Shown one piece after another: positions 2 through 20,363 of a DNA stretch of 20,545 nt. Every line of letters begins with the position of its first letter. The stretch's first letter is position 1. Source of the stretch: a virus; IMG/VR virus record IMGVR_UViG_3300030108_002052, positions 1,718-22,262 of that record, one strand, 5' to 3'. The translations under genes and the position numbers were made by a program. A model generated the notes under the pieces. It was not told where the DNA came from. It made no database searches and saw only the letters and a program-made list of their open reading frames with translations.

Positions 2-457
2 AACGGATTCAACTTTGAATCACTCGGCTTAGTCTCCGCTAACTCATCAACAAACATTACCATAAGCAGTCCTTTTTCGGGAACTTTAGCCAACGGAAGT
101 GAGTTATTTATTCGTAGTTATGCTGAACCCGAATACATAAACGATGAGTTTCATGTCGCTTGTGTATTTAATGATACTACAAATACCATTACTTTCTATA
201 TTAATGGAAATAAGATTTTTTCTAATAAACACACCCAAACATCTACTTTTACTTTTGCTCCTGCTGATTGCACTATTGGACAGGCATTCTCTAATATTGG
301 TTATAATACTGCTAGTGTAAATAAACAATATATGGGAGAGATACATGAAATGAGCATGATTGATATTCCAAGAAAGAACTTTGTTGGAACATTTAATCTA
401 TTACCGAATTATGAAAATGTTCTCTTCTATTACAGATTTGAAGAGGTGGATTTGTAA
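2..457 (+). CDS. LamG/concanavalin A-like structural protein, C-terminal 151 aa (5' partial)
   Basis: The frame is open from the window edge to a TAA at 455-457; its start lies outside. The visible part looks like a concanavalin A-like (LamG-type) beta-sandwich. It has the typical run FHVACVFNDTTNTITFYING (about residues 53-72), followed by a second strand pair around YMGEIHEMSMIDIPR. LamG-like domains in viral tail or decoration proteins usually bind glycans or other surface ligands, so a role in host attachment or virion decoration is an inference from family and context. Its stop overlaps the ATG of the giant hub-like gene (TAATG, 455-459), suggesting translational coupling within the structural operon. 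GAGGTGG just upstream of the stop probably serves as ribosome binding site for the next gene. The domain call is from pattern only. Confidence 0.75.
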   Translation, partial: NGFNFESLGLVSANSSTNITISSPFSGTLANGSELFIRSYAEPEYINDEFHVACVFNDTTNTITFYINGNKIFSNKHTQTSTFTFAPADCTIGQAFSNIGYNTASVNKQYMGEIHEMSMIDIPRKNFVGTFNLLPNYENVLFYYRFEEVDL

Positions 458-3400
458 TGGCAGTAAGAGTTTTGAATTTAGGAGAGCAAACTGTTTCTTC
501 CTCTTCTAATCAAAATACTCCTAATAACCCCATGTTAAATTGTGATAGTTTAGTCTCATCTACAAATCCTTTAGCAGTTGTTGTTTATCCTGATGATACT
601 ACTTCTGAATCAATAGAAGAAATTGTTTCAAGTGCAGATATGCTAACAGACCTCTCTAATTTAGAAAAGACAGAAGGCAATACACTAAAAGTATATGATT
701 CTTTTTCGGGGGAAGGAGTTGATTTAAGTTCTTTAACGGATATTAGCACTCATCATTATTTTGTTATGGTTCATTCAGACAATCATTTATTACATCATTT
801 TGCTAAAATTACTGAGATTCATACAACTGATGCTTTCGGAGACAGTATTAAATTTGAACCAAGTTTAGGAAATGAAATTACACATGGAGTAAAATTTAAA
901 CTTTTTAAAGGGCCAGCAGTCAGTAGTGATTTTATTACAATAGGACTAGGAATTAAAAATGATTTACAGAATGCTTTACATATTTCTCGTCCTTATTTTT
1001 GGTTTAATAGAGAAGTTAATGAATTAGAAAGTAATACCAAACATTTTGTTAGAGTTAAAGAAATAACAGTTGGTTCATCTTTAAATCTATCAACAGGTAG
1101 TTCTGATACAACTTTCTTAGTTTCGCAAAATTACGCTAGTGAAATTAAAGACTATGGTAAATTTACTTTAAAAACAAGATTAGTAGATAATTTAAGAAAC
1201 TTAGATATTGAAGGTTTTACTCCAATTACCTTTACTGGCGATATGCATTCGGTAAACCATCCCGATGAAATAAGAAATATTACTGGTATTAGTTCGGGAA
1301 CAATTAATGATTTATTGTATAGAGGAATAGTTAGAAACAATGTTCCTGACGGAACATATGTTACAGAAATACTAAGTTCTAATTCAATTCGTATCTCTCA
1401 AAATGTTACTGCGGCAGTTTCTACAACTCCTTTTACTGTAAGTCATTCTAATGAAAGTCATGTATTATCGTCAAATGATTTGACAGATTATGAAACTTCT
1501 TTCTTTAATGCAAGAAGAGACGCTGATGATTTAATTTTACCTTCTTCTTCTAATTATACTTCAAGAGGCCCAACAAGATATTTACACTATGATTTTTCAA
1601 ATGAGAAGGCAAACTATTCTTATAATGTAATGGATATGAGCATTGAAGAATCTATTCAAGGAAAGACATCTTTTTCTGAAGTTGAAGTTGCAGACATGAT
1701 GAAAATTTATCCCAGTAAACTAGAAGTAAATACTCCTATGAGAGTAAGACATAGATTAAGTAGAAATAGACTAAACAGGTTTGTTGATACTGGTTTAACA
1801 GTTGGAGCAAACGGAATGCTTACTGGTAATGATGGTTCAGGTAATCAAATTGTTTCTGTTCATATTGTAAATGTAAATGATTATTTTTCTGAAGGAGAAG
1901 AAATAAAAATAGAAGATAGGCTATATGTAATTCTATCTGTTAATTCTGGAACAAATACAATTAAGTTATTACAGGCAGATACTACCATTGATGGTTCACC
2001 TAACACTTATTCTCGTCTTGAAACAGAATCATCTTATACAGATATTGGAACTCCTAGTATTAATGTAGGGGATTCTGTTTTTAGAAGAGCATATAGTCCT
2101 TTTAAAAAGAATTTGATTAACGACTTCGATTTAATTTCTAGTCGTCATAGTGATTTATATATTATTATTAATACAAAAAATGCAGTATATAATTATTTTA
2201 AATGTAGTGCTGCTAACTCTTCTAGTAATTTACTTACATTTACAATAGATTTAGATAAATATATAGAAGAAGGAATGCATTTTAACGGTGAATATTATCT
2301 TTACTATGAAAAATTAAATGGAACAATAGAAGTTTTAGATTATTATAGACAAGATGGACAAAGTATAATGAAAGTAGAAGGTAGAGACATTGTTACTCAA
2401 ATTCTTTCTCCTATTGTAAATAGAGATACAATGTTCAGCGAAGACATTGTTTATTCTTCTTTTGCTCCAATTAATGATTTAATTGATATTGGATATGTTG
2501 AGGCTAATTTTAACAGTCAAACAATTACTATTAAAGATGCTTCAAATGTTAATGCTTCATTATCTTTAGTTTCAGGAGATAGGCTTTATGTAAGAACTAA
2601 TACAACAAACTTCTACAAGTTTTTAGGAACTGTTTCTGTCACAGCAACAGGTTCTACTCACAGTTTATCAAATCTAAGTTTTGTTAAATGTGGTGGAGAT
2701 ACATTCTCAAATAAAGGTGTATTTAAATTATACAAGGCTAGAAAAAATGGAACTAACCCAGTTAAAAATTATGTCTTTAATAAGGCTTTATCGAGCAATA
2801 TATTAGTTGATTCAGTAACATCATTGTCTGGTTCTTCTAATAAAGGATTATTTTTTACTGGAGGAATGTCTCTAAACGATTTAGGAGTTGAACAAGAAAC
2901 ATTAGTAAATACTTCTTCATCTTCAGACTCAAAGGCTATTGGTTATCATATAAGTAAAGTTGATGGAGATATTAACGGAGCAGATTATCAAGCCGTATTG
3001 GGAGATGGAGCAGCAACAGAATCACATGAAAACATTTTAATGATGAATACTTTAATGGATTATTCCGTGTTATCTGTATCTGAATCAGAAGGAAATAAGA
3101 TAATAGAAATAGCACCATATGTTCCTGCAACTCTTGGAAGATTAGAGTCTAATTTAGCAAATAACTATGATGCGACTACTTTAACTTCTCTTGGTTTTAC
3201 ACACGGGCATATTTCAATTACTGAGCCTGAGAGATATATTTTTAAATCTGTAACTAATGGTTCTTATACTGCTCCTTCAGCACATAGTATCAGAAGAAAT
3301 GATGCAATTTTTATTGATGACATTTTTGTTGGATTTGCTTTAGCAGAACATAATACTACTTTACATTCTTTTATTGTTATGGATAGACCTGTGTTTTATT

Positions 3401-6400
3401 CTGCTGGTCAGGTTTTAACTTGTATTCATAATAGATTTGGTCTTAGTAAAGGAACATTGGGTAGTGGCCCAAGTGCTGATAATAAAAATACACATGAATT
3501 AGAATTGTTAAATGTTGAGCATTTACATGGAGGAAAAACTATTGCTCACATGCAACATTTTAATCTTCGTCCAACTCCGCTTGATGTTTCTTTAACCTAT
3601 AATGATAGTAGCGAAATAACTTCATTTGAAAAGTTTGGAAATCCTGTCTATACTATTTATAATCTTGAAAAAGGAAATCAAATAAACTATGTTGCGACTT
3701 ACAAAGTAAATGCAACAAAAGAGGAAACATATAAAAAAGTAAAAAGTAGGCAAGTAGCCGAATCAACTGCACATAAACATTTACCTATTGAAGCAAGAGG
3801 TTATTTTACACCTACATACTCTAATTATGATGATAAACAGATTGGAGTTTCTAGCGAACATCAAACATACGCTTTCCCTTCATCTTTTGACCTTATTTCT
3901 AGTGACAGACAAAGCGATGTAGCCCAGTTTAATACTAATACTTCTAAAGAAGCGTTCTTGAAAAGACAAAAGACAGTTGATAGAATGTTTATTTTCGTTA
4001 ATTCAGATGAACAACCTTATCACCAATCAAGAGTTGATAGTTTAGCAAACGATACAAAAACAAGGACAATAGATAAATATAATATTGTAGGTCTATTGCC
4101 GACTGCTTCGGCTAATTCTACTGATGGAAACTCTCAAGAATTAACTACTGTTAGACATACTAATATTGATGAAGACTATGTTACAACAAATATTGTTTCT
4201 TCTGATAAAAATATAAACTCTTTGATGAATGTAGGAATAATGAGACTAACCGAAGTGGTCGTGGATTGGGCATTTAATCAAATAGACCCCGAAGACCTGC
4301 AAGAGCCAGTTATTACAGAACCTACAATAAAAGAGGTTTTTACTCCACAACATTTATTCAGCACTTCAACTGCTTATTATGCCCAATCAGGAAGTTATAA
4401 TGTAGGAGGCGACCCTTTGACATTTCAAGTATATACTGCGGCAAGCGGGGGTAGTGTTCAAACAATTAGCAGTTCTGATATTAAACGAGGAGATGCTATA
4501 ATTGCAGTTGATACTGGGTTTTTGATAGGTATTTGTAGAAATGATGACAGCCTTACCCTTGTTTCAGATGCTTTGTTTGCCGATAGCGATAAAAATGCAT
4601 ATTATACAGGAGAAGTAAAAAGAATACCATTCACTCAAATTTCAGGAAATACTGTAAATGGAAGGAGTGAAGAAGATTCTTTCATGGCTTATGATACAAG
4701 CGTAAATATGCTAAGAACTGCATATTTTAATAGTCCTGCTCATACTTCTACACAAAAACAATTAGTTCTTGATAATAACTCAGTTTTGCCTATTCATGCT
4801 CATAGTTCAGGTAGCACACCTTCTGAATCATTAAGTTGGTTTGCTTTACAATTTAATGATAGTAGTGGAAGTAAAGTGGGTTTCTTTTTCTGGTTTAATG
4901 TAGAAAATTCTGACGGTAATCAAATAGATACTATTCCTGCTGATTATGCTACCAGTTATTCCCCTCATTCTGATGGTATAACATATACTGCTGTTGAAAT
5001 ACAATTATCAAACGGATATAGTTCAACCGACTTTCATACGGCTTTAGCAACTGCTTTTGATTCTGTTAATTTAAGAACAGACCATGTTTTTGGCGGAAAT
5101 GAAGCAAATGATTCTGATGCCGCTACTTATGGTGGAGCATCAGTTACTCAATTAAGAACAAAAAGAGCCGCACCAAGTAATTTTTATGAAACTACTTCCA
5201 CACTTAATCATCACCCCGTTTCTACTGTTACTACGGTAAATGTAGATATTACCGCAGATAGCACAGGATGGGGCGGTAATCCAAGCGCATATTATAGTAA
5301 ATGGAGTGAAATCTTAGGAGGACAAATAAATAATTATGTTTCAACGCCAAGAAAAGGAGGAACATACTTACCAGTATCAATAGCAACTCAATTTACCAGC
5401 ACAGTTGAAGCGTATTCAGATATATTAACAACTTTAGCAAATGCTCCTAAATCTACTTCTCATGCAGATATATCTACTACTGATATTCACGAACTAAAAT
5501 ATACAGACTTTGTTCCAGTTGCATTAGGTAGTTTTATTATTGAAGATTCTAAGCAAAAGAAAAAGATTAGCGTTGGAGAAAGTTTCCCTAAAATAGAAGC
5601 ACTCTTTAGAAAAGAAGTATCGAGTTCAAGAACAATTTTTGGCTTGGCTTCGAGTTATTCAACTTTCTATAATAAATATGAATATTATCTTGATTTCGGA
5701 ACAAATAAACAAGAGAATACTAATTTACCAGAAGAAGGTAATGGAATGAAAATAGGCTTCAAGCCGAGATTAGACGGTAATTTAGGAACATTGTTAGGTT
5801 CGGTTGGAGATTACAAAGAAAGTGGTGGAGCAACAGTTTATCCTTACACTTTTGACACTAACAATACTAAACTTTCTTGGTTAAGAGACTTGGATTTAAC
5901 TGGTTGTTATTTAGTAAGACAAAGCGACACAAATAGAGATAATAATTACTTTGTTGATGGCTTCGGTTTTAATTATATTATTTCTCACGAAATAGATAAA
6001 AGCAATTCAAATAAAGTTATTTTAACTTTAGAAAGCAGTCTTGCGCCAAATGTATTAAGAATATTACAACCTAACCATACTTGCTTTTATGAGTTTAGTC
6101 CAACTGATATTAACATAGGCTATCTTTCGAGTCAATATACTAAGAAGCCTAACACTAATGAATGCTATGGAGATTTAAATAGCCACGCTGCTGATAACAA
6201 AACTATGAGAAGAAATGATAGCATTAACGATATGGAAGCAATAGGCTCAATATATGTATTAGTGGATTTATCTGGAAAAGTTGATGCTAACAGTAAAATG
6301 GTAAATATTAGTATGCAAAATTCATTTACAGATAGTCTTCCGTCTAGTGCTTGTTTAAGTGATGGAACAACTACCTTTAAATCTGCATTATCAACCGATG

Positions 6401-6738
6401 GATATAATTTAAAATTTGATACCCTTAAAACAACAAAAGGCATTGTTAGCATAAGTGAACCGATTACACTTAAAGTAGGTAAAAATTTCAATAAAGATGC
6501 TAAAAGATGTCTTATTGGAAATACAGTTACTATTGTTCAAGAGTCAGAAGAATTAGCGCAGTCTCTTTTAGAAAAAGAAAATATTAGTTTTACTTCTTTA
6601 AATGAACCCACTTATCCATTGTTTGTTGCTCCTAATTTTCAAGGAAATGATTTACTTGCAGCAACTAGATTTTTACTCAATAAAAAAGATAGAGAAATTG
6701 AAGTTATTGATGGTAAGTTTGTAATTTTTACTGTCTGA
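457..6738 (+). CDS. Giant tail hub/baseplate-like virion protein (2093 aa), probably the N-terminal part of a frame-broken hub
   Basis: This is the largest gene in the window. It is a beta-rich protein full of Ser, Thr and Asn, as is common for tail and baseplate proteins. Around residues 600-680 there is a hub-like segment with VEGRDIVTQILSPIVN (V640-D644 and following), which recalls the beta-barrel domains of phage hub proteins (gpD/gp27-type). A short beta motif of the form G/N-D-x-[IL]-x(6-10)-G recurs at about residues 709 (SGDRLYV), 948 (RNDAIFI) and 1343 (RGDAIIA), suggesting repeated small domains. The C-terminus (DLLAATRFLLNKKDREIEV) resembles the start of the conserved C-terminal hub domain. 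The rest of that domain lies in the +1 frame at 6725-7408, so the 2093-aa product looks truncated. The ATG is preceded by GAGGTGG and overlaps the preceding stop. The hub assignment is by resemblance and position. Confidence 0.7.
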   Translation: MAVRVLNLGEQTVSSSSNQNTPNNPMLNCDSLVSSTNPLAVVVYPDDTTSESIEEIVSSADMLTDLSNLEKTEGNTLKVYDSFSGEGVDLSSLTDISTHHYFVMVHSDNHLLHHFAKITEIHTTDAFGDSIKFEPSLGNEITHGVKFKLFKGPAVSSDFITIGLGIKNDLQNALHISRPYFWFNREVNELESNTKHFVRVKEITVGSSLNLSTGSSDTTFLVSQNYASEIKDYGKFTLKTRLVDNLRNLDIEGFTPITFTGDMHSVNHPDEIRNITGISSGTINDLLYRGIVRNNVPDGTYVTEILSSNSIRISQNVTAAVSTTPFTVSHSNESHVLSSNDLTDYETSFFNARRDADDLILPSSSNYTSRGPTRYLHYDFSNEKANYSYNVMDMSIEESIQGKTSFSEVEVADMMKIYPSKLEVNTPMRVRHRLSRNRLNRFVDTGLTVGANGMLTGNDGSGNQIVSVHIVNVNDYFSEGEEIKIEDRLYVILSVNSGTNTIKLLQADTTIDGSPNTYSRLETESSYTDIGTPSINVGDSVFRRAYSPFKKNLINDFDLISSRHSDLYIIINTKNAVYNYFKCSAANSSSNLLTFTIDLDKYIEEGMHFNGEYYLYYEKLNGTIEVLDYYRQDGQSIMKVEGRDIVTQILSPIVNRDTMFSEDIVYSSFAPINDLIDIGYVEANFNSQTITIKDASNVNASLSLVSGDRLYVRTNTTNFYKFLGTVSVTATGSTHSLSNLSFVKCGGDTFSNKGVFKLYKARKNGTNPVKNYVFNKALSSNILVDSVTSLSGSSNKGLFFTGGMSLNDLGVEQETLVNTSSSSDSKAIGYHISKVDGDINGADYQAVLGDGAATESHENILMMNTLMDYSVLSVSESEGNKIIEIAPYVPATLGRLESNLANNYDATTLTSLGFTHGHISITEPERYIFKSVTNGSYTAPSAHSIRRNDAIFIDDIFVGFALAEHNTTLHSFIVMDRPVFYSAGQVLTCIHNRFGLSKGTLGSGPSADNKNTHELELLNVEHLHGGKTIAHMQHFNLRPTPLDVSLTYNDSSEITSFEKFGNPVYTIYNLEKGNQINYVATYKVNATKEETYKKVKSRQVAESTAHKHLPIEARGYFTPTYSNYDDKQIGVSSEHQTYAFPSSFDLISSDRQSDVAQFNTNTSKEAFLKRQKTVDRMFIFVNSDEQPYHQSRVDSLANDTKTRTIDKYNIVGLLPTASANSTDGNSQELTTVRHTNIDEDYVTTNIVSSDKNINSLMNVGIMRLTEVVVDWAFNQIDPEDLQEPVITEPTIKEVFTPQHLFSTSTAYYAQSGSYNVGGDPLTFQVYTAASGGSVQTISSSDIKRGDAIIAVDTGFLIGICRNDDSLTLVSDALFADSDKNAYYTGEVKRIPFTQISGNTVNGRSEEDSFMAYDTSVNMLRTAYFNSPAHTSTQKQLVLDNNSVLPIHAHSSGSTPSESLSWFALQFNDSSGSKVGFFFWFNVENSDGNQIDTIPADYATSYSPHSDGITYTAVEIQLSNGYSSTDFHTALATAFDSVNLRTDHVFGGNEANDSDAATYGGASVTQLRTKRAAPSNFYETTSTLNHHPVSTVTTVNVDITADSTGWGGNPSAYYSKWSEILGGQINNYVSTPRKGGTYLPVSIATQFTSTVEAYSDILTTLANAPKSTSHADISTTDIHELKYTDFVPVALGSFIIEDSKQKKKISVGESFPKIEALFRKEVSSSRTIFGLASSYSTFYNKYEYYLDFGTNKQENTNLPEEGNGMKIGFKPRLDGNLGTLLGSVGDYKESGGATVYPYTFDTNNTKLSWLRDLDLTGCYLVRQSDTNRDNNYFVDGFGFNYIISHEIDKSNSNKVILTLESSLAPNVLRILQPNHTCFYEFSPTDINIGYLSSQYTKKPNTNECYGDLNSHAADNKTMRRNDSINDMEAIGSIYVLVDLSGKVDANSKMVNISMQNSFTDSLPSSACLSDGTTTFKSALSTDGYNLKFDTLKTTKGIVSISEPITLKVGKNFNKDAKRCLIGNTVTIVQESEELAQSLLEKENISFTSLNEPTYPLFVAPNFQGNDLLAATRFLLNKKDREIEVIDGKFVIFTV
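6721..6738 (+). other. Frame break in the hub coding region at a five-T run
   Basis: The giant gene reads GTA ATT TTT ACT GTC TGA here. The next frame opens after a TAA at 6722-6724 and continues for more than 680 bases with hub-like sequence but no ATG, GTG or TTG until 6917. A run of five T lies at 6725-6729. Removing one T would join the frames as ...GKFVILLSEQSKYKVYEF, which reads as one continuous protein. The sequence alone cannot separate an assembly or sequencing indel, a real frameshift mutation, or +1 programmed frameshifting before the UGA. Confidence 0.7.
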
Positions 6739-15214: not shown

Positions 15215-16120
15215 TCACAACCATGTATCTGTATTTGCCGCATCACAAATACCAAAGTAAGAACAATGAGAACAAGTCTTGTAATAAAACTTAGTTTCAA
15301 AGTGTTTTTGCTCATAAGCGTGAATTAATTTGGCTATGTTGTTCATAACAGATGTTCTCGTTCTTTTCTTAACTGGTTCAACGGTAATGTGATTAGCGGC
15401 TGGATAATACCAACCCCAATGACTTACTTCCATATCACTATTTAATCCATATTTAGCCAATATTTCATCATCACAGTTCTCAATCATCAATTGATAGAAA
15501 GCCATTTCTTGACGCATAGATGTTTGTTTCCAGTCTTTCCAACCACCTGTTTTATATTCAAAAGGAATAAGTTTTCCATTCTCAATAAACACACGGTCAA
15601 TAATACCCTGCAATCTTACAACATAATCTCTTTGAAGTGGAAACTTCTTGTTTGTATTTTTAGGAATAGTGATTTCACAATCAAACAACTCTTCATTGAT
15701 GATAGGTAAAAATTCATCAGTTTTTCCTTCAGACTTAGCCTCAATAAATCGTTGTGCTTCAAATGCTGCTACTGTTAAAGAAATGTCATAGTATTCATCA
15801 ACTGGCATTAAACTTGTAACATACTCAGTAATTTCTGAATTATTCATACCTTCTGCCTTCTTTACATCAAATTCATCAAAGAAGTTCTCTCGATGATTAT
15901 GCAAAATTGTTCCCTTACGCATGGCTTCTGTTTGGTCTTGAGGCAATTTCTCAATATAACTAAACTCATACTTTTTAGGACACCAATTGAATGCACCCAA
16001 AGATGATTTACTAATCTTTAGAATAGGCTTTGATGGGTCATCAAAACTTTCAGCGTCCCATTGATATGTAAATTCTCTCATTGATTTAATTCTTGCTTCA
16101 TATACTTCATCTTTATCCAT
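15215..16120 (-). CDS. Cas4/RecB-like PD-(D/E)XK nuclease with Fe-S cysteines (301 aa)
   Basis: The motif order fits the Cas4/AddB-like nuclease group. It runs ISKSSLGAFNWCPKKYEF with C47, then KGTILHNHRE with H74, GIIDRVF with D175, PFEYKTG with E188 and K190, and RQEMAFYQ (Q204 region). A C-terminal cluster, KTCSHCSYFGIC, supplies C283, C286 and C292. Together with C47 these give the four cysteines that hold an Fe-S cluster in Cas4. Such enzymes resect DNA ends. No cas1, cas2 or repeat array is visible in the window, so a role in replication or recombination is more likely than CRISPR adaptation. The gene starts six bases after the polymerase C-terminal part, with GGTGGTGA before the ATG. 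Confidence 0.85.
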   Translation of the reverse strand: MDKDEVYEARIKSMREFTYQWDAESFDDPSKPILKISKSSLGAFNWCPKKYEFSYIEKLPQDQTEAMRKGTILHNHRENFFDEFDVKKAEGMNNSEITEYVTSLMPVDEYYDISLTVAAFEAQRFIEAKSEGKTDEFLPIINEELFDCEITIPKNTNKKFPLQRDYVVRLQGIIDRVFIENGKLIPFEYKTGGWKDWKQTSMRQEMAFYQLMIENCDDEILAKYGLNSDMEVSHWGWYYPAANHITVEPVKKRTRTSVMNNIAKLIHAYEQKHFETKFYYKTCSHCSYFGICDAANTDTWL

Positions 16121-16126
16121 TGATTT

Positions 16127-17020
16127 TCACCACCATTCTTCAAGGCTTTTTTGCGTATATCCTGTGCGAATAGACGATATATCCCAACCCATAGCCTTGT
16201 AAATAGGTTCGGCTTTCTTTACTACTTGTTCAGCATAGTGCCTCCAATCGGGAGTATAACCTTTAAAATCTTGATAGGTTATGCCCGATATGTATTCAAC
16301 ATCTTTCTTTTCTTGAGTCAAAGGATGAATAAATGAATTACAAAAGCCCATTACTTTAATAAATAAATAAGAGTCATCGAAATTAGTGTCATTTTCCTGC
16401 CAAGCATATAAAACTCCAGCAATTCCTGAACCAATTGACGGTTTCTTTCCATCTAATGTAGTAAATTTACTCGTTGAAGTTGCACACCTTTTACATACAG
16501 AATGTTTTAAGTCTAAACATTCTTTCAAATGATATTTAGCATTACATTCAGGGCATTTTACAGTAAATCTAGCAGGGCGTAAACGACTTCTTTTAATAAT
16601 TGATTTTAAATCAATTTGTCCAGTTAAGACCTTTTGATATGTGTCAAAAAGATACTTGTTTATTTCTGCGTTTGTTTTATTTTCTACCCACATTTTAAGA
16701 GTATTAGTTTGCACATCTTTTGCTAACTGTGTTTCACTTACTCTTTTGGCAGTAAAACCCGTCATAGTGAATTTTGGTTCATTCAACCATTCACCATCTT
16801 CCCAAGATACTAAGCCAGCATTTCTGTTTTTAGTTGTTCCAACACCTAATGCTGAAAAATACTTTTCAAATTCTAATACTACTGGATGTTCATTTAAACC
16901 CATGACATTAGGAAAGTGTTCCCTTACACTTGTTTCTATTTCTTTAATGGCGTTTTGTGCTTCTTCAACAGAATCCACCTGAACATAAATAGAATCAGTA
17001 TGTCCGTAAACTACTTTCAT
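16127..17020 (-). CDS. polB: Family B DNA polymerase, C-terminal part: motif C, thumb, zinc-ribbon insert, PIP-like tail (297 aa)
   Basis: The protein opens with motif C, MKVVYGHTDSIYV; H7 replaces the first Asp of the usual YGDTDS, while D9 is kept. A KKRY-like segment follows (GTTKNRNAGLVSWEDG, 61-76), then a thumb segment (FTAKRVSETQLAKDVQ, 89-104). Residues 156-179 carry CPEC and CKRC, a zinc-ribbon-like insert not found in the standard thumb. The last eight residues, QKSLEEWW, match the PCNA-interacting peptide pattern Q-x-x-h-x-x-aromatic-aromatic. The N-terminal two thirds of the enzyme are encoded at 17934-19577. The two products should assemble into one polymerase, as is known for the split PolB of Methanothermobacter. 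The start is four bases after the coiled-coil gene's stop. Confidence 0.88.
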   Translation of the reverse strand: MKVVYGHTDSIYVQVDSVEEAQNAIKEIETSVREHFPNVMGLNEHPVVLEFEKYFSALGVGTTKNRNAGLVSWEDGEWLNEPKFTMTGFTAKRVSETQLAKDVQTNTLKMWVENKTNAEINKYLFDTYQKVLTGQIDLKSIIKRSRLRPARFTVKCPECNAKYHLKECLDLKHSVCKRCATSTSKFTTLDGKKPSIGSGIAGVLYAWQENDTNFDDSYLFIKVMGFCNSFIHPLTQEKKDVEYISGITYQDFKGYTPDWRHYAEQVVKKAEPIYKAMGWDISSIRTGYTQKSLEEWW

Positions 17021-17024
17021 AATA

Positions 17025-17225
17025 TCACTTCATCCAAGTAAATAACATTCCAACAGGTTCATTCTTCATTTTTGCAACTTCTTCTTGCAATTCTCGAATA
17101 CATGATTTTATTTTACTGTTCTGTTCATTTTGCTCTATTTGATAATCCAAGTCTCTTTCCAATCCTAAGATTCTTTGCTTAAGAGTCTTTATTTCTGCTT
17201 TTAATTCTTTAATTTCTTCTTTCAT
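17025..17225 (-). CDS. Small coiled-coil protein (66 aa)
   Basis: Almost the whole protein is a heptad-like helix rich in Glu, Lys and Leu (MKEEIKELKAEIKTLKQRIL, then LERDLDYQIEQNEQ), so a coiled coil is likely over about residues 2-53. The tail (NEPVGMLFTWMK) is more hydrophobic. The ATG overlaps the stop of the membrane peptide (ATGA) and is preceded by GGTGA. The polymerase C-terminal gene begins four bases after its stop. It is one of five tiny genes between the polymerase parts. A coiled coil could bring proteins together, possibly the polymerase halves, but that is speculation. Confidence 0.65.
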   Translation of the reverse strand: MKEEIKELKAEIKTLKQRILGLERDLDYQIEQNEQNSKIKSCIRELQEEVAKMKNEPVGMLFTWMK

Positions 17226-17353
17226 ATTATCACCGTCACTATTGTTATAATGGTTGCTATGTTTACGATATTTACCATCATTAATATCCTATTTGACCTT
17301 GCTATCATAGCCAGCAATTCTTCTAATAACTCATTAGTTCTGTCCATCATCAT
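17222..17353 (-). CDS. Small hydrophobic membrane peptide (43 aa)
   Basis: The ATG at 17353 overlaps the stop of the 78-aa gene (ATGA), and the TGA overlaps the next ATG (ATGA, 17225-17222), so it fits exactly between its neighbours. The product has an amphipathic N-terminal half (MDRTNELLEELLAMIARSN) and a hydrophobic C-terminus from about residue 22 (RILMMVNIVNIATIITIVTV) that reaches the end of the protein. This looks like a tail-anchored single transmembrane helix. The function is unknown. Two further in-frame ATGs follow the first (MMM). Confidence 0.6.
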   Translation of the reverse strand: MMMDRTNELLEELLAMIARSNRILMMVNIVNIATIITIVTVII

Positions 17354-17586
17354 TGTGAATCCACCGAATCATTCAAGACTTTTACATTATTACCAGAAAT
17401 CTGAGTATTGTTGTTTCCTACTGCAACTTGTGAAGTGGAACTAACTCTTTGCTCAACTCCTAAAATAATAGCATTACGCTTTAAGTTATTCATCATTTGA
17501 AATAATTCTTTTATTTCTTGCATGGTAATATCCCATGTTTCTTCTGTATCATATGATACCTTAACTGTTACTATTTTTGTCTTCAT
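17350..17586 (-). CDS. Unknown small protein (78 aa)
   Basis: I do not recognise this protein. It starts two bases after the TAA of the wHTH-like gene, with GAGGATTT upstream. The N-terminal half alternates strand and helix (MKTKIVTVKVSYDTEETWDI, then TMQEIKELFQMMNNLKRNAI). The C-terminal half is polar and rich in Asn, Ser and Val (SSTSQVAVGNNNTQISGNNV) and looks flexible. No cysteine, metal-binding or catalytic motif is visible. Its ATGA overlap with the membrane peptide suggests coupled translation within the small-gene cluster between the polymerase halves. Confidence 0.55.
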   Translation of the reverse strand: MKTKIVTVKVSYDTEETWDITMQEIKELFQMMNNLKRNAIILGVEQRVSSTSQVAVGNNNTQISGNNVKVLNDSVDSQ

Positions 17587-17587
17587 T

Positions 17588-17803
17588 TTAAATCCTCACA
17601 TATACTCTTCTTCCCCTACTAAGGTTCTTAGTCAATACATTATCTTTACGATTTAAATACCAACCTATTGCACTATTATCAGCAACAAAAGTTGTTCCTC
17701 TTCTGCTAACTAATTCTTCTTTTACTTGTTGAGCGATAAATTCATGCCCTACTGGAAAAGAAGAAACAATAGAATCAATCCATCTTTTAACATGACTATT
17801 CAT
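17588..17803 (-). CDS. Small winged-helix-like protein (71 aa)
   Basis: The ATG at 17803 overlaps the zinc-ribbon stop (ATGA), with AAGGAGAG just upstream (minus strand), a good ribosome binding site. The order helix (HVKRWIDSIVSSF), helix (FIAQQVKEELVSRR), helix (NSAIGWYLNRK), then a strand pair ending RRVYVR fits a compact winged helix-turn-helix. It is probably a DNA-binding protein, for instance a regulator or accessory replication protein. The assignment is by secondary-structure pattern only. Confidence 0.6.
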   Translation of the reverse strand: MNSHVKRWIDSIVSSFPVGHEFIAQQVKEELVSRRGTTFVADNSAIGWYLNRKDNVLTKNLSRGRRVYVRI

Positions 17804-17931
17804 CCAAATCTCTCCTTATGTCCACAACTAGGGCATTCATATACTGCTTTTTCTTTTGCGCTAGTATAACCATATCCTTTCTTTCTATAATATTTACATA
17901 TCAATTCTGTTCCACATACTAAACATTTCAT
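17800..17931 (-). CDS. Small zinc-ribbon protein (43 aa)
   Basis: The ATG at 17931 lies two bases after the stop of the polymerase N-terminal gene, preceded by GGAGATG. The product reads MKCLVCGTELICKYYRKKGY and ends YECPSCGHKERFG. C3/C6 and C33/C36 form two CxxC knuckles of a zinc ribbon (with C12 as a spare cysteine), and the stretch between is basic. The TGA overlaps the next ATG. Its layout resembles the other tiny zinc ribbon at 10550-10702, but the sequences do not look closely related. Nucleic acid binding is plausible. It is the first of the five genes between the polymerase halves. Confidence 0.7.
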   Translation of the reverse strand: MKCLVCGTELICKYYRKKGYGYTSAKEKAVYECPSCGHKERFG

Positions 17932-17933
17932 AT

Positions 17934-19577
17934 TTACATCTCCTTTGCTTTAAAAGCCGCTAATCTAATTGCTTCTCTTGCACTTGCAGTAATTGATGCG
18001 GCTAAATTAACATTAGCCCAACCAAATCCTTGAAATGCAACGATACCGTAAAAAGAAGCCATTAAACGCTTAACTGCCATTTGATTGTTATACCACTTTG
18101 CATAATCTCCCGTTCCTCTTGCTTCTCTCATAAGACGCTTATATTCGTTTCGCAACTCCTTAAGTTCCAATACTGCTCTTGGTAATAATCCAAGTTCATC
18201 AGTTTTGAAATAAATCATTTGTTCTCTCTTAACTGGACTGAAATCTCTCGGTGTTAGAATATTTACTGCAAATTCTGTTGGTTCTTGACTAATTGTTTCC
18301 CAACTGATATTTCTTGCAATCATCATTGAAGGATATAGACCAGCAAAATCAAAGGCGGCTACATTAAGATGTAATCCGTTTGTTCCTTCGCTTAACGGGT
18401 CATAAATCATCGCACCCTCATATTCTTCTCTTTTATCCACTTTACTTCCAGTTGGTGCTTTCCACCAAGCATTTCTCATAAAATAAATAGAACCCATATG
18501 GCTCGCATAAAAACAAGCATCAAATGGTGCTTTTAGTAATCTTTGTAATGAAAGAATTGCTTCACTACAAAAGTTTGTTTCATCAATTTCAACAATCAAT
18601 TCAACATCTATTAGAGCATACTTAAGATAAGTTTCTGTATCTTCTAACCAAGCCCTACGATAGAATTCATTTGTATCTGGAAACTTTTCTGATACTAACT
18701 TCTTTTTACCAAGAACCATTTCACCTATGTAATCTAAAGACATTGATGGTAATGTTCCTCTTTGAGAATCATTCCATTGTCTTTCAAATGCTAAGTCTAA
18801 TGAAAGCGTAATTCGCCCACCAATAGGTTGTTCAATAGGACTAAATCCTTTTTCAGCATAAGCAAAGGTATATTCATCTTTCTTCTTTTTAATACCTTTA
18901 ATATAACCAGTAGGCGACATAACGCAGGGATTCAAACCTACTGCACACGCTCTTTCTAAAAGTTTAGGAATATCAGCAAAATTACCAAACCAAGCAATTA
19001 ACATATCTGGGTCTTTTACAATCATTGTAGTCATAAAAGATTCAATCATATCTTTTTCACTATTAAATACCGCTATCTTATCTGATTGTTTCCAATGTAA
19101 ATGAGAAGGGGCATCGGGAAACCATACCCATTGATGGTATTGTTCATCATAATTATCATAAACAACAATTGTAGTCAATTGGTCATGATATTCTCCACCT
19201 TGTTGCCACTCCATATCCCAATACCACTTACGCAGTTTATATTCGGGCATTTCATCTAATTCATCAACACAATAGCGAAAATGAAAAGGAACATCTGCTT
19301 CATAGGTTCTTCCAAAAATCTTCTTTGCTTCCCTAATATCATTGGCTGAATCAACAAGGACTTTCTTCAACGGCTTTTTTTCAAGATTAACCCAATTACC
19401 TCGAACATAAGTAAAGTCTCTAGTAATATATTTACTAGCATTATACATCGGAGGTTCGGGAGCATCTTCATCAACATAGAAATATGGCTGAAATTGAACT
19501 AAATCAAATTTCTTCTCGCCATCTTCTCTCCATGATTTGTAAATAGTTTTGCCATCGCTCATCTTGCTAATTATCAT
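17934..19577 (-). CDS. polB: Family B DNA polymerase, N-terminal part: exonuclease, motif A and motif B (547 aa)
   Basis: The proofreading motifs are present: Exo I WYWDMEWQ (D121, E123), Exo II AWFGNFADIPKLL (N199, D202) and Exo III YALID (Y320, D324). Palm motif A is FDFAGLYPSMM (D410, Y415, S417). Motif B is KRLMASFYG (K503, Y510, G511), with Ala507 where most family B enzymes have Asn. The protein stops after the helix that follows (ASAREAIRLAAFKAKEM), just before the strand that should carry motif C. That motif starts the separate product at 16127-17020. The two parts add up to about 844 aa, a normal size for an archaeal PolB, with almost nothing missing at the join. No intein motifs are visible at the ends. 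The start is six bases after the PCNA gene, with GGGTGA upstream. Confidence 0.92.
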   Translation of the reverse strand: MIISKMSDGKTIYKSWREDGEKKFDLVQFQPYFYVDEDAPEPPMYNASKYITRDFTYVRGNWVNLEKKPLKKVLVDSANDIREAKKIFGRTYEADVPFHFRYCVDELDEMPEYKLRKWYWDMEWQQGGEYHDQLTTIVVYDNYDEQYHQWVWFPDAPSHLHWKQSDKIAVFNSEKDMIESFMTTMIVKDPDMLIAWFGNFADIPKLLERACAVGLNPCVMSPTGYIKGIKKKKDEYTFAYAEKGFSPIEQPIGGRITLSLDLAFERQWNDSQRGTLPSMSLDYIGEMVLGKKKLVSEKFPDTNEFYRRAWLEDTETYLKYALIDVELIVEIDETNFCSEAILSLQRLLKAPFDACFYASHMGSIYFMRNAWWKAPTGSKVDKREEYEGAMIYDPLSEGTNGLHLNVAAFDFAGLYPSMMIARNISWETISQEPTEFAVNILTPRDFSPVKREQMIYFKTDELGLLPRAVLELKELRNEYKRLMREARGTGDYAKWYNNQMAVKRLMASFYGIVAFQGFGWANVNLAASITASAREAIRLAAFKAKEM

Positions 19578-19583
19578 TATTAT

Positions 19584-20363
19584 TCACCCATTAACAGTTG
19601 GGGCTTTCAATAGCATTCTGTCATTAGATACTAATAAAAGCGGAAATTCATCTTTCATATATACATTAATCATTTGGTCTTTCTCAAAGAAAGCATAAAC
19701 TGGACTGCTAAATTCAACAGTCGCAGGTTCTCCCATAGGAAATACAGGAGTAATCGCTTCTTCGTATTTGTTTGTGACATTTTCTCTTGAAGATACTGTC
19801 AAGAGATTTTCATTGTAATCAAACTTATAAACACCATTTTTAACCAACTCACAATTTTTTATTGCTGATTGCAGTTGAGGTTGAGTTAAAGTAAATGCTC
19901 CTTCAAATTGAGATTTACCAAAGTTAAATAGCGTCTGTGGTTGTATTTCATATACAACATGATTTAGCATATTTTTAATTCTAACCAAAGCATCGTTATT
20001 TGGATGATTGACTACTATCGGAATAGAGGCTTTCTTATTAGCACCATTAAGTGCAATAAAATCACCTACATTAAAAGTGACAATTTCTCCAAAAGTTTTC
20101 AAGTAAGGTAGTAAAGTGGTAGTATCAACTACACAACTTCCTTCAACTATTCTTGTATTAACCTGTTCATCTAATTGAATATCAAGTTTAACAAAGAAAG
20201 TATTGTTTCCATTCCAAATACTTAGTGTATTGTCTTTAACAATAAGCATTACATAAGAACCAAGAGAAGTATTACCGAAACCACTATTTGTGCTTCCCTT
20301 CCCCTTAACTTGAATATTTGTTAATGCTTTGCTTAGTTTATCACATTCAATTGTAAATATCAA
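19584..20363 (-). CDS. pcn: PCNA-like sliding clamp (259 aa)
   Basis: Length and pattern fit PCNA. The N-terminal strand is MIFTIECDKLSKALTNI, there are two similar halves with a connecting region around residues 115-140, and the C-terminus has DEFPLLLVSNDRMLLKAPTV, like the family's last strands. Clamps encircle DNA as a ring, usually a trimer in archaea, and hold polymerase and nucleases on it through PIP boxes; the PolB C-terminal part ends in such a peptide. The loop at about residues 19-36 (VKGKGSTNSGFGNTSLGSYV) is unusually rich in Gly and Ser. The start is TTG: TTGA overlaps the preceding stop (20363-20360), with GAGGGA upstream on the minus strand. Confidence 0.85.
   Translation of the reverse strand: MIFTIECDKLSKALTNIQVKGKGSTNSGFGNTSLGSYVMLIVKDNTLSIWNGNNTFFVKLDIQLDEQVNTRIVEGSCVVDTTTLLPYLKTFGEIVTFNVGDFIALNGANKKASIPIVVNHPNNDALVRIKNMLNHVVYEIQPQTLFNFGKSQFEGAFTLTQPQLQSAIKNCELVKNGVYKFDYNENLLTVSSRENVTNKYEEAITPVFPMGEPATVEFSSPVYAFFEKDQMINVYMKDEFPLLLVSNDRMLLKAPTVNG

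Follow-up and report, generated by a model that had tools for sequence, protein, structure and literature searches.

A family-B DNA polymerase encoded in two genes with a fixed junction, and the small genes between them, in magrovirus-like ocean viruses

The family-B DNA polymerase (PolB) described here is encoded by two separate genes in a 20,545-nucleotide (nt) stretch of viral DNA, called the window in this work, which comprises positions 1718-22262 of the 22,262-base IMG/VR virus record IMGVR_UViG_3300030108_002052. The record belongs to a magrovirus-like ocean virus, a name based on likeness of gene content and on the two-gene PolB; the group is thought to infect archaea. Between the polymerase genes lie five small open reading frames (ORFs), here termed zn, wh, un, mem and cc. 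From the N-terminal to the C-terminal polymerase part, the features are:

17934..19577, minus strand: PolB N part, 547 amino acids (aa); PF03104 and PF00136; phrog_262 (1.1e-65)
17800..17931, minus strand: zn, 43-aa four-Cys protein, zinc-ribbon-like by its sequence; matches only below curated cut-offs
17588..17803, minus strand: wh, ORF of 71 aa, winged helix-turn-helix-like by eye, without family match
17350..17586, minus strand: un, ORF of 78 aa; found in 88 of 183 loci, always with mem
17222..17353, minus strand: mem, 43-aa peptide with a polar N-terminal half followed by a single hydrophobic stretch (hydropathy 2.41)
17025..17225, minus strand: cc, 66 aa, coiled-coil-like (coiled-coil-type matches only, below cut-off); its end lies 4 nt from the C-part start
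16127..17020, minus strand: PolB C part, 297 aa; PF00136; PHROG likewise assigns a family-B DNA polymerase

An original prediction, made from the DNA letters, had assigned Exo I-III and motifs A and B to one gene and motif C plus thumb to a second gene about 910 bases downstream, with five tiny genes between. Pfam, PHROG and the motif residues agree with this division. The N part carries the exonuclease domain (Exo I-III) and the palm with motif A (D410) and motif B (K503), and the C part carries motif C as YGHTDS, the end of the palm, a thumb with four conserved cysteines and a C-terminal end resembling a PCNA-interacting peptide (PIP) box. Positions 37-193 of PF00136 are matched by the N part and positions 222-362 by the C part. 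The residues by which a family-B DNA polymerase is recognized (Exo I-III, motifs A and B, the acidic residue of motif C) were all found. From the N stop to the C ATG the distance is 913 nt, occupied by five packed ORFs; three of the six junctions are 4-nt overlaps and the others leave 2, 1 and 4 nt. The five ORFs thus lie where they had been placed, but of their labels zinc ribbon and winged helix-turn-helix found no Pfam match at the curated cut-off, and that of membrane peptide derives from hydropathy.

Relatives were collected in four scans of viral contigs, which yielded 268 sequences with both polymerase parts, the window and its own record included. Removal of repeats left 183 distinct loci, among them the window; its own record, which is on the other strand, was set aside. 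For residue counts, 12 pairs with incomplete ends or internal stops were excluded (171 left), and the remainder was dereplicated at 97% identity on the N part to 137 pairs. Six viral scans in all were made, from which the best 80 each of 527, 89, 461, 512, 249 and 111 relatives were retrieved, and statements on all loci refer to the loci fetched. Counts from the un scan and from the outgroup scan described below are to be read as at least the number given.

The two parts were separate, with the same junction, in 183 of 183 distinct loci, and none was fused. C parts began with M-K/R/E/Q-(V/L)-V-Y-G-H-T-D-S-I-Y in 177 of the 183 loci; of the others, four start with TTG or GTG and one with ATC, and one aligned only from residue 5. 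Altogether, ATG, GTG or TTG is the start codon of 181 of 183 C parts. The N part stops at most four residues past its aligned end in the 93 loci listed. Viral contigs were also scanned for a fused form, with YGHTDSIY as query (Ser encoded as TCN only) and with the first base of the usual ATG codon not A. Sixteen stretches were obtained, all with Val or Leu at the usual ATG codon and with at most 16 open residues upstream, and for these reasons none is counted as fused. The comparison called for by the original prediction thus yielded no continuous polymerase among the loci fetched. About three residues had been predicted to be missing at the join; in agreement, the N profile reaches residue 582 of the intact PolB of Halorubrum tailed phage 8 (HRTV-8) and the C profile, aligned from its second position on, takes over at 587, and by NCBIfam profiles about one residue is missing (arithmetic on match ends). 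The N-C gap ranged from -4 to 2,819 nt with a median of 749 nt (183 loci). Nothing lies between the parts in loci L162 and L211, with gaps of -4 and -1 nt; in L162 the N and C genes overlap as ATGA.

That the polymerase is decaying, or that the split is an artefact of assembly or annotation, is so improbable that it hardly enters the discussion. A few single contigs, such as L200, do have extra frame breaks in the N part, and 12 of 183 pairs are incomplete or interrupted. Against this stand the identical junction across many assemblies, the catalytic residues invariant in 137 of 137 pairs, and the low proportion of nonsynonymous differences (pN) around motif B: 0.07, with a proportion of synonymous differences (pS) of 0.53. 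Close relatives from several other metagenomes show the same gene order. The prediction of a clean split rather than decay was therefore borne out.

The halves might instead be joined after transcription or translation, by a spliced intron or by a split intein of the Nanoarchaeum type. PolB genes often host inteins and introns, and intein-like domains are present at motif C in the outgroup PolBs L498, L501 and L516. However, in the 93 loci listed the N part stops within four residues of its aligned end, C parts have their own start codon, often preceded by a Shine-Dalgarno-like site, and the gap is filled with ORFs and varies in length over the whole range given above. Shine-Dalgarno-like 5-mers were found before the C start in 64 of 137 loci, compared with 5% in shuffles, and before the N start in 51 of 137. 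No intein or Hint match was obtained for the N, C or gap genes of the window, nor for 20 gap proteins of relatives (19 of 61 family representatives and one other), and Rfam gave nothing at gathering score in the window. Joining of this kind is therefore considered very unlikely.

Residues of both halves are strictly conserved. In all 137 dereplicated pairs D and E of Exo I, D of Exo II, Y and D of Exo III, D and Y of motif A, K and Y of motif B and the second D of motif C were invariant. In place of its first Asp, motif C has His in 137 of 137, that is in the window (16991-17008, minus strand) and 136 relatives, so that all C parts read YGHTDS. Halovirus-like and more distant loci have YGDTDS in 25 of 41, and none of their PolB ORFs has YGHTDS. 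In PMC7544198, PolBs without the first Asp of motif C are described as capable of activity. In the C-part thumb, Cys156 and Cys159 were found in 137 of 137, Cys176 in 127 and Cys179 in 135. The C part further ends in a Q-x-x-L-x-x-W-W/F box, which we take to be a PIP box, in 134 of 137 cases, compared with none of 137 N-part tails.

An AlphaFold model of the C part had a mean predicted local distance difference test score (pLDDT) of 83.9. Compared with the PDB by Foldseek, it gave 154 matches at E<=0.001, and the best 50 of these were all PolBs (top 6e-7), as expected for the palm-thumb fold. Residues 1-10, which include the motif C strand, were poorly ordered when the C part was folded alone (pLDDT 54); this is to be expected, as the strand would complete a sheet with the N part. 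In searches of a phage collection by tblastn, the C part found no match with the BLAST low-complexity filter on. The N part matched seven plasmid records at 22-27% identity.

Observed, then, are separate genes at one junction, invariant residues in both halves, separate starts and a PolB fold of the C part. The split is real, very probably functional and, within the sampled set, ancient. As motif A resides on the N protein and motif C on the C protein, activity should require both, to judge by established PolB chemistry. In the mechanism that we propose, the N protein would supply the exonuclease, the first half of the palm with motif A and the fingers with motif B; the C protein would supply the second half of the palm with motif C, the thumb and the PIP-like box that would bind a clamp. 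Each would be translated from its own start, and we infer that the two proteins physically associate, without covalent joining, and are active. Taken together, a working two-subunit replicative PolB, a gap that serves as a tolerated landing site for small genes, and an origin by insertion and loss of an invader form an account that we consider likely.

The contents of the gap differ widely between loci. Gaps hold zero to nine ORFs as counted by a gene-chain script; un and mem were counted by tblastn, as the script missed overlapping genes and caught only 54 of 88 mem copies. In the clade of the window (68 dereplicated loci), un was present in 68, mem in 68, cc in 65, wh in 49 and zn in 21. The 67 dereplicated loci of the other clade yielded none of the five in their gaps; the small genes there are different ones, and many encode zinc-finger-like proteins or single-span membrane peptides. 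The arrangement of five small genes is thus specific to the window record and its near relatives: the same small genes recur there, as the original prediction had suggested might be seen, but not in the other clade. Loci L051 and L219 were counted apart from both clades; L051 lies inside the window clade and lacks un and mem by tblastn. Hits to un in both loci obtained with an iterated hidden Markov model were not counted, as a fused wh-un ORF of L077 had contaminated the model.

Compared with the junctions to the flanking genes, the N-C gap was the largest of the three in 109 of 126 loci, which makes it the favoured site of gene accumulation among them. Zinc-finger-like genes were commoner in the gap (124 of 573 genes) than among nearby small genes (50 of 719). 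An enrichment of membrane peptides in the gap was considered and rejected (110 of 573 versus 106 of 719), and 41 of 67 gaps of at least 79 nt in dereplicated loci without un-mem hold a membrane peptide. Two gap genes of other loci were seen in passing. L156:4380-4718 is a PemK/MazF-like toxin gene (PF02452, 4e-16) with a gene of the same cluster in L155, and L225:4798-5001, with its cluster of 30 genes in the other clade, encodes a conserved single-span membrane protein of about 68 aa between the PolB parts, many copies of which end in (L/I)LQDVN(V/L)I.

Codon analysis gave pS 0.61 and pN 0.13 for un, and pS 0.69 and pN 0.08 for mem. With pS far above pN, both are real proteins under purifying selection, and the same high synonymous differences (0.61-0.69) ruled out a DNA or RNA element as the reason for their conservation. 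In 12 diverse copies of mem 27 of 43 columns were invariant. mem matches no family in the libraries searched, and a defence library gave two weak coiled-coil-type matches only, both to cc. In a model of un (pLDDT 73.9) the conserved first ~45 residues form an extended stretch and one helix; neither a meaningful sequence match nor a fold match was found for un in the PDB.

Where the small genes bear on the enzyme, un, mem and cc could be dedicated accessory subunits of the two-part PolB, such as an assembly factor or a membrane tether, kept in place for joint expression. In line with this, 88 of 183 loci have un and mem, always as a pair, and the two are fixed in the clade and under strong purifying selection. 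In 69 of the 80 mem loci fetched, mem is preceded by the N part and followed by the C part; nine more show one PolB part, with mem at most 950 nt from the end of the DNA on the other side, and two, L345 (279 bases) and L376, show neither. Likewise, un is flanked by both parts in at least 69 of 81 loci, and 51 loci have cc overlapping the C start or at most 5 nt away from it. On the other hand, the same split is present in the other clade, whose 67 gaps contain none of the five genes, and in L051 without un and mem, and L529 carries the trio after a helicase gene. Since the split also persists where the gap is -4 or -1 nt, the small genes are dispensable for the two-part enzyme, and a role as accessory subunits appears improbable. 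Of the two options left by the original prediction, cargo or helpers of the enzyme, cargo is therefore favoured, but un and mem are fixed and look functional in their own right.

L529, a phage-like contig of 5,488 bases, is the whole record behind L376. It gave no match to the PolB N part, an empty answer that by itself shows little. At L529:4971-5488 it encodes un, mem and then a cc-like ORF that runs off the record end, after a DnaB-like helicase. Families matched by its larger ORFs are NAD-dependent ligase, PC4-like and DnaB-like helicase, and a BRCT match was weak. Ligase and helicase are nearest to those of Salmonella, Escherichia and Yersinia phages, with 31-44% identity among the 12 matches listed per search; nearly all of these phages, among the matches listed, are of 107-123 kb and presumably T5-like. 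The ORF that precedes un is related to one in Pelagibacter phages; its matches in Klebsiella phages are partial and weak. mem and the un of L529 had no tblastn match in the phage collection (low-complexity filter on). Compared with the magrovirus copies (best five hits each), un is 45-55%, mem 81-86% and cc 37% identical; at such values a chimera with a known magrovirus is unlikely, though L529 is a single record and may be a chimeric contig.

The un-mem-cc trio is probably independent of the polymerase. Fixation, purifying selection and the trio of L529 without PolB-N make un and mem look like independent viral genes with their own function. In the gap of the window clade, a fixed un-mem pair, a near-fixed cc and the variable zn and wh would thus work independently of the enzyme; a membrane-linked early function of the set may be guessed at. 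More boldly, un-mem-cc might be a portable module of archaeal and bacterial viruses that inserts beside replication genes. It would encode a small complex anchored in the membrane and directed at the virus's replication machinery or at superinfecting viruses and, in magroviruses, would have become fixed inside the split polymerase, with enzyme halves and module made from one message. We hold this to be rather unlikely.

As to how the split arose, an endonuclease gene, or an intein lost imprecisely, would have interrupted an ancestral polB before motif C, and the split would have been retained after loss of the invader. HNH-family genes were found in the gap of at least four of 183 loci (L072, with PF01844 above cut-off; L054, with HNH models just below cut-off; two members scanned). 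T5orf172/MUG113 genes, which we take to belong to the GIY-YIG superfamily, were found in at least five (two members scanned). The sum of 9/183 is a lower bound, since only family representatives were scanned. All four HNH genes and two of the T5orf172/MUG113 genes touch the N stop codon; the other three are 368 nt away. In the window itself, Pfam revealed no homing-endonuclease ORF between the halves.

An outgroup was obtained by a viral scan with halovirus PolBs (at least 41 loci; motifs by regular expression). Motifs A and C were found in one ORF in 29 loci, A without a match to C in ten and nothing in two. Three loci, L498, L501 and L516, have an intein-like domain at motif C; in L500 one lies between motifs A and B, and in L499 it follows motif C. 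Only in L499 did the Pfam intein model score above cut-off. In L495:2974-6404 and L497:2971-6322 an HNH ORF separates the two parts of a halovirus-like PolB, and the cut falls about 90-100 residues past motif C. L498:2983-6671 has the same cut without HNH gene, an ATGA overlap and the intein-like domain at motif C. This halovirus-like split around HNH is an independent parallel to the magrovirus-like split and, by analogy, would favour an origin by endonuclease insertion followed by loss. Profile coverage suggests yet another split, between motifs A and B, with PHROG 2062 and 1918 as its two halves.

As the origin, an intein may instead have been lost imprecisely at motif C, with no endonuclease insertion and with the small genes arriving later; this is quite possible, if short of probable. 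Related PolBs do have intein-like domains within motif C, after YGD and ahead of its remaining residues. However, the magrovirus-like C part begins four residues ahead of the Y in YGHTDS, away from what we take to be the usual intein site at motif C, no intein remnant was found at either end, and the halovirus-like analogues are split around HNH genes. For the splits of Methanobacteriales, erratic intein excision was proposed by Makarova et al. (PMC4104785).

Several points weigh against the account of a two-subunit enzyme that arose by insertion and loss. The correlated divergence of the N and C proteins (r 0.91) is expected from common descent alone and does not prove that they bind each other. 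Activity is not certain, given His for the first motif C Asp in all 137, and sites resembling Shine-Dalgarno sequences precede the C start in under half of the loci. For random cargo, un, mem and cc are kept too persistently. Endonuclease-type genes were seen in just 9/183 loci, a lower bound, and not in the window, so that the case for an endonuclease origin is one of analogy, and an intein origin is also possible, given the intein-like domains at motif C in the outgroup. Finally, no intact magrovirus PolB was found among the fetched loci, so that the direction from intact to split is inferred from haloviruses.

Split PolBs are known elsewhere, as the original prediction had noted. In T4-related Aeromonas phages 25 and 44RR, according to PMC2988022, gene 43 is divided into gp43A and gp43B, separated by an untranslated stretch in 44RR and a seg endonuclease in 25, and the phage 25 products co-purify and polymerise. 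As in the window, a viral PolB lies in two cistrons with sequence between; these phages have a bacterial host, however, whereas the magrovirus-like split is fixed in the whole set and its gap holds many unrelated small genes. The split PolB3 of Methanobacteriales, likened here by description, is also an archaeal PolB in two polypeptides, but cellular and of another PolB group. The Methanothermobacter PolB is likewise split between motifs B and C; this two-polypeptide type was reportedly isolated and characterised by Kelman in 1999, to go by a title. In Nanoarchaeum equitans the split lies near motif C, and the halves could be joined by a split intein, of which the window genes show no trace. 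Its PolB in two genes is mentioned in PMC4104785. Among the matches listed, the closest intact relatives in the phage collection include PolBs of the Halovirus B5 type (Hafunaviridae, e.g. HRTV-8), with about 25% identity over 89-98% of the N part. Both the N and C profiles align to HRTV-8, and its C terminus, QTGLAAFC, resembles a PIP-like box; it differs in being one 863-aa gene with YGDTDS as motif C.

The split itself is not new: in the Aoguangviridae profile of the International Committee on Taxonomy of Viruses (PMC10768690), the genome figure legend labels PolB-NTD/CTD and names PCNA. To the extent of these sources, Aoguangviridae and other magroviruses resemble the window in two-gene PolB and replication gene content, and the window nucleases agree with the magrovirus gene content given in PMC10160649. 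No named magrovirus genome was among the matches listed in the phage-collection searches. Literature searches found no account of the fixed junction, the range of gap sizes or the small-gene cassette; the founding paper, Philosof 2017, was outside their reach and may describe the split. These searches turned up no printed mention of how universal and exact the junction is, of the split being independent of the small genes, of the fixed un-mem pair and its companion cc, of the parallel in halovirus-like PolBs or of the single sighting of the trio outside PolB.

The polymerase genes of the window are flanked by:

19584..20363, minus strand: conserved neighbour upstream of the N part; homologue in 141 of 152 loci
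15215..16120, minus strand: PD-(D/E)XK (Cas4/RecB-like) nuclease downstream of the C part; PF12705 (8.2e-17); homologue in 130 of 152 loci

From its position, the product of 19584..20363 is presumably sliding-clamp-like. Pfam and PHROG yielded nothing for it and the PDB nothing meaningful by sequence; it may be a strongly diverged clamp or something else. Family searches of the window confirmed neither a primase nor a clamp. Pfam identified an ERCC4 nuclease as well as the PD-(D/E)XK nuclease, and the two-gene PolB is thus accompanied by the virus's own replication and repair genes, as in magroviruses. An ORF of 2,093 aa at 457-6738 had no Pfam match at E 0.1, and a structural protein would be a guess. 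A magrovirus-like PolB C part (L311), the sole relative from the genome-contig scan, lies on a contig filed under a Maricaulis metagenome-assembled genome and is probably from a misbinned virus.

A two-part PolB cut between its active-site motifs can thus be evolutionarily stable and not a stage of decay, and every sampled member of a widespread marine virus group has kept the split. The fixed junction marks a natural place at which PolB enzymes can be cut, for split reporters or controlled polymerases. Within the gap, mem is nearly as constrained as the PolB region around motif B. The halovirus-like relatives form an apparent series of intact PolB, intein at motif C, split around HNH and split with overlap, which makes the way in which polymerase genes become split testable by comparison.

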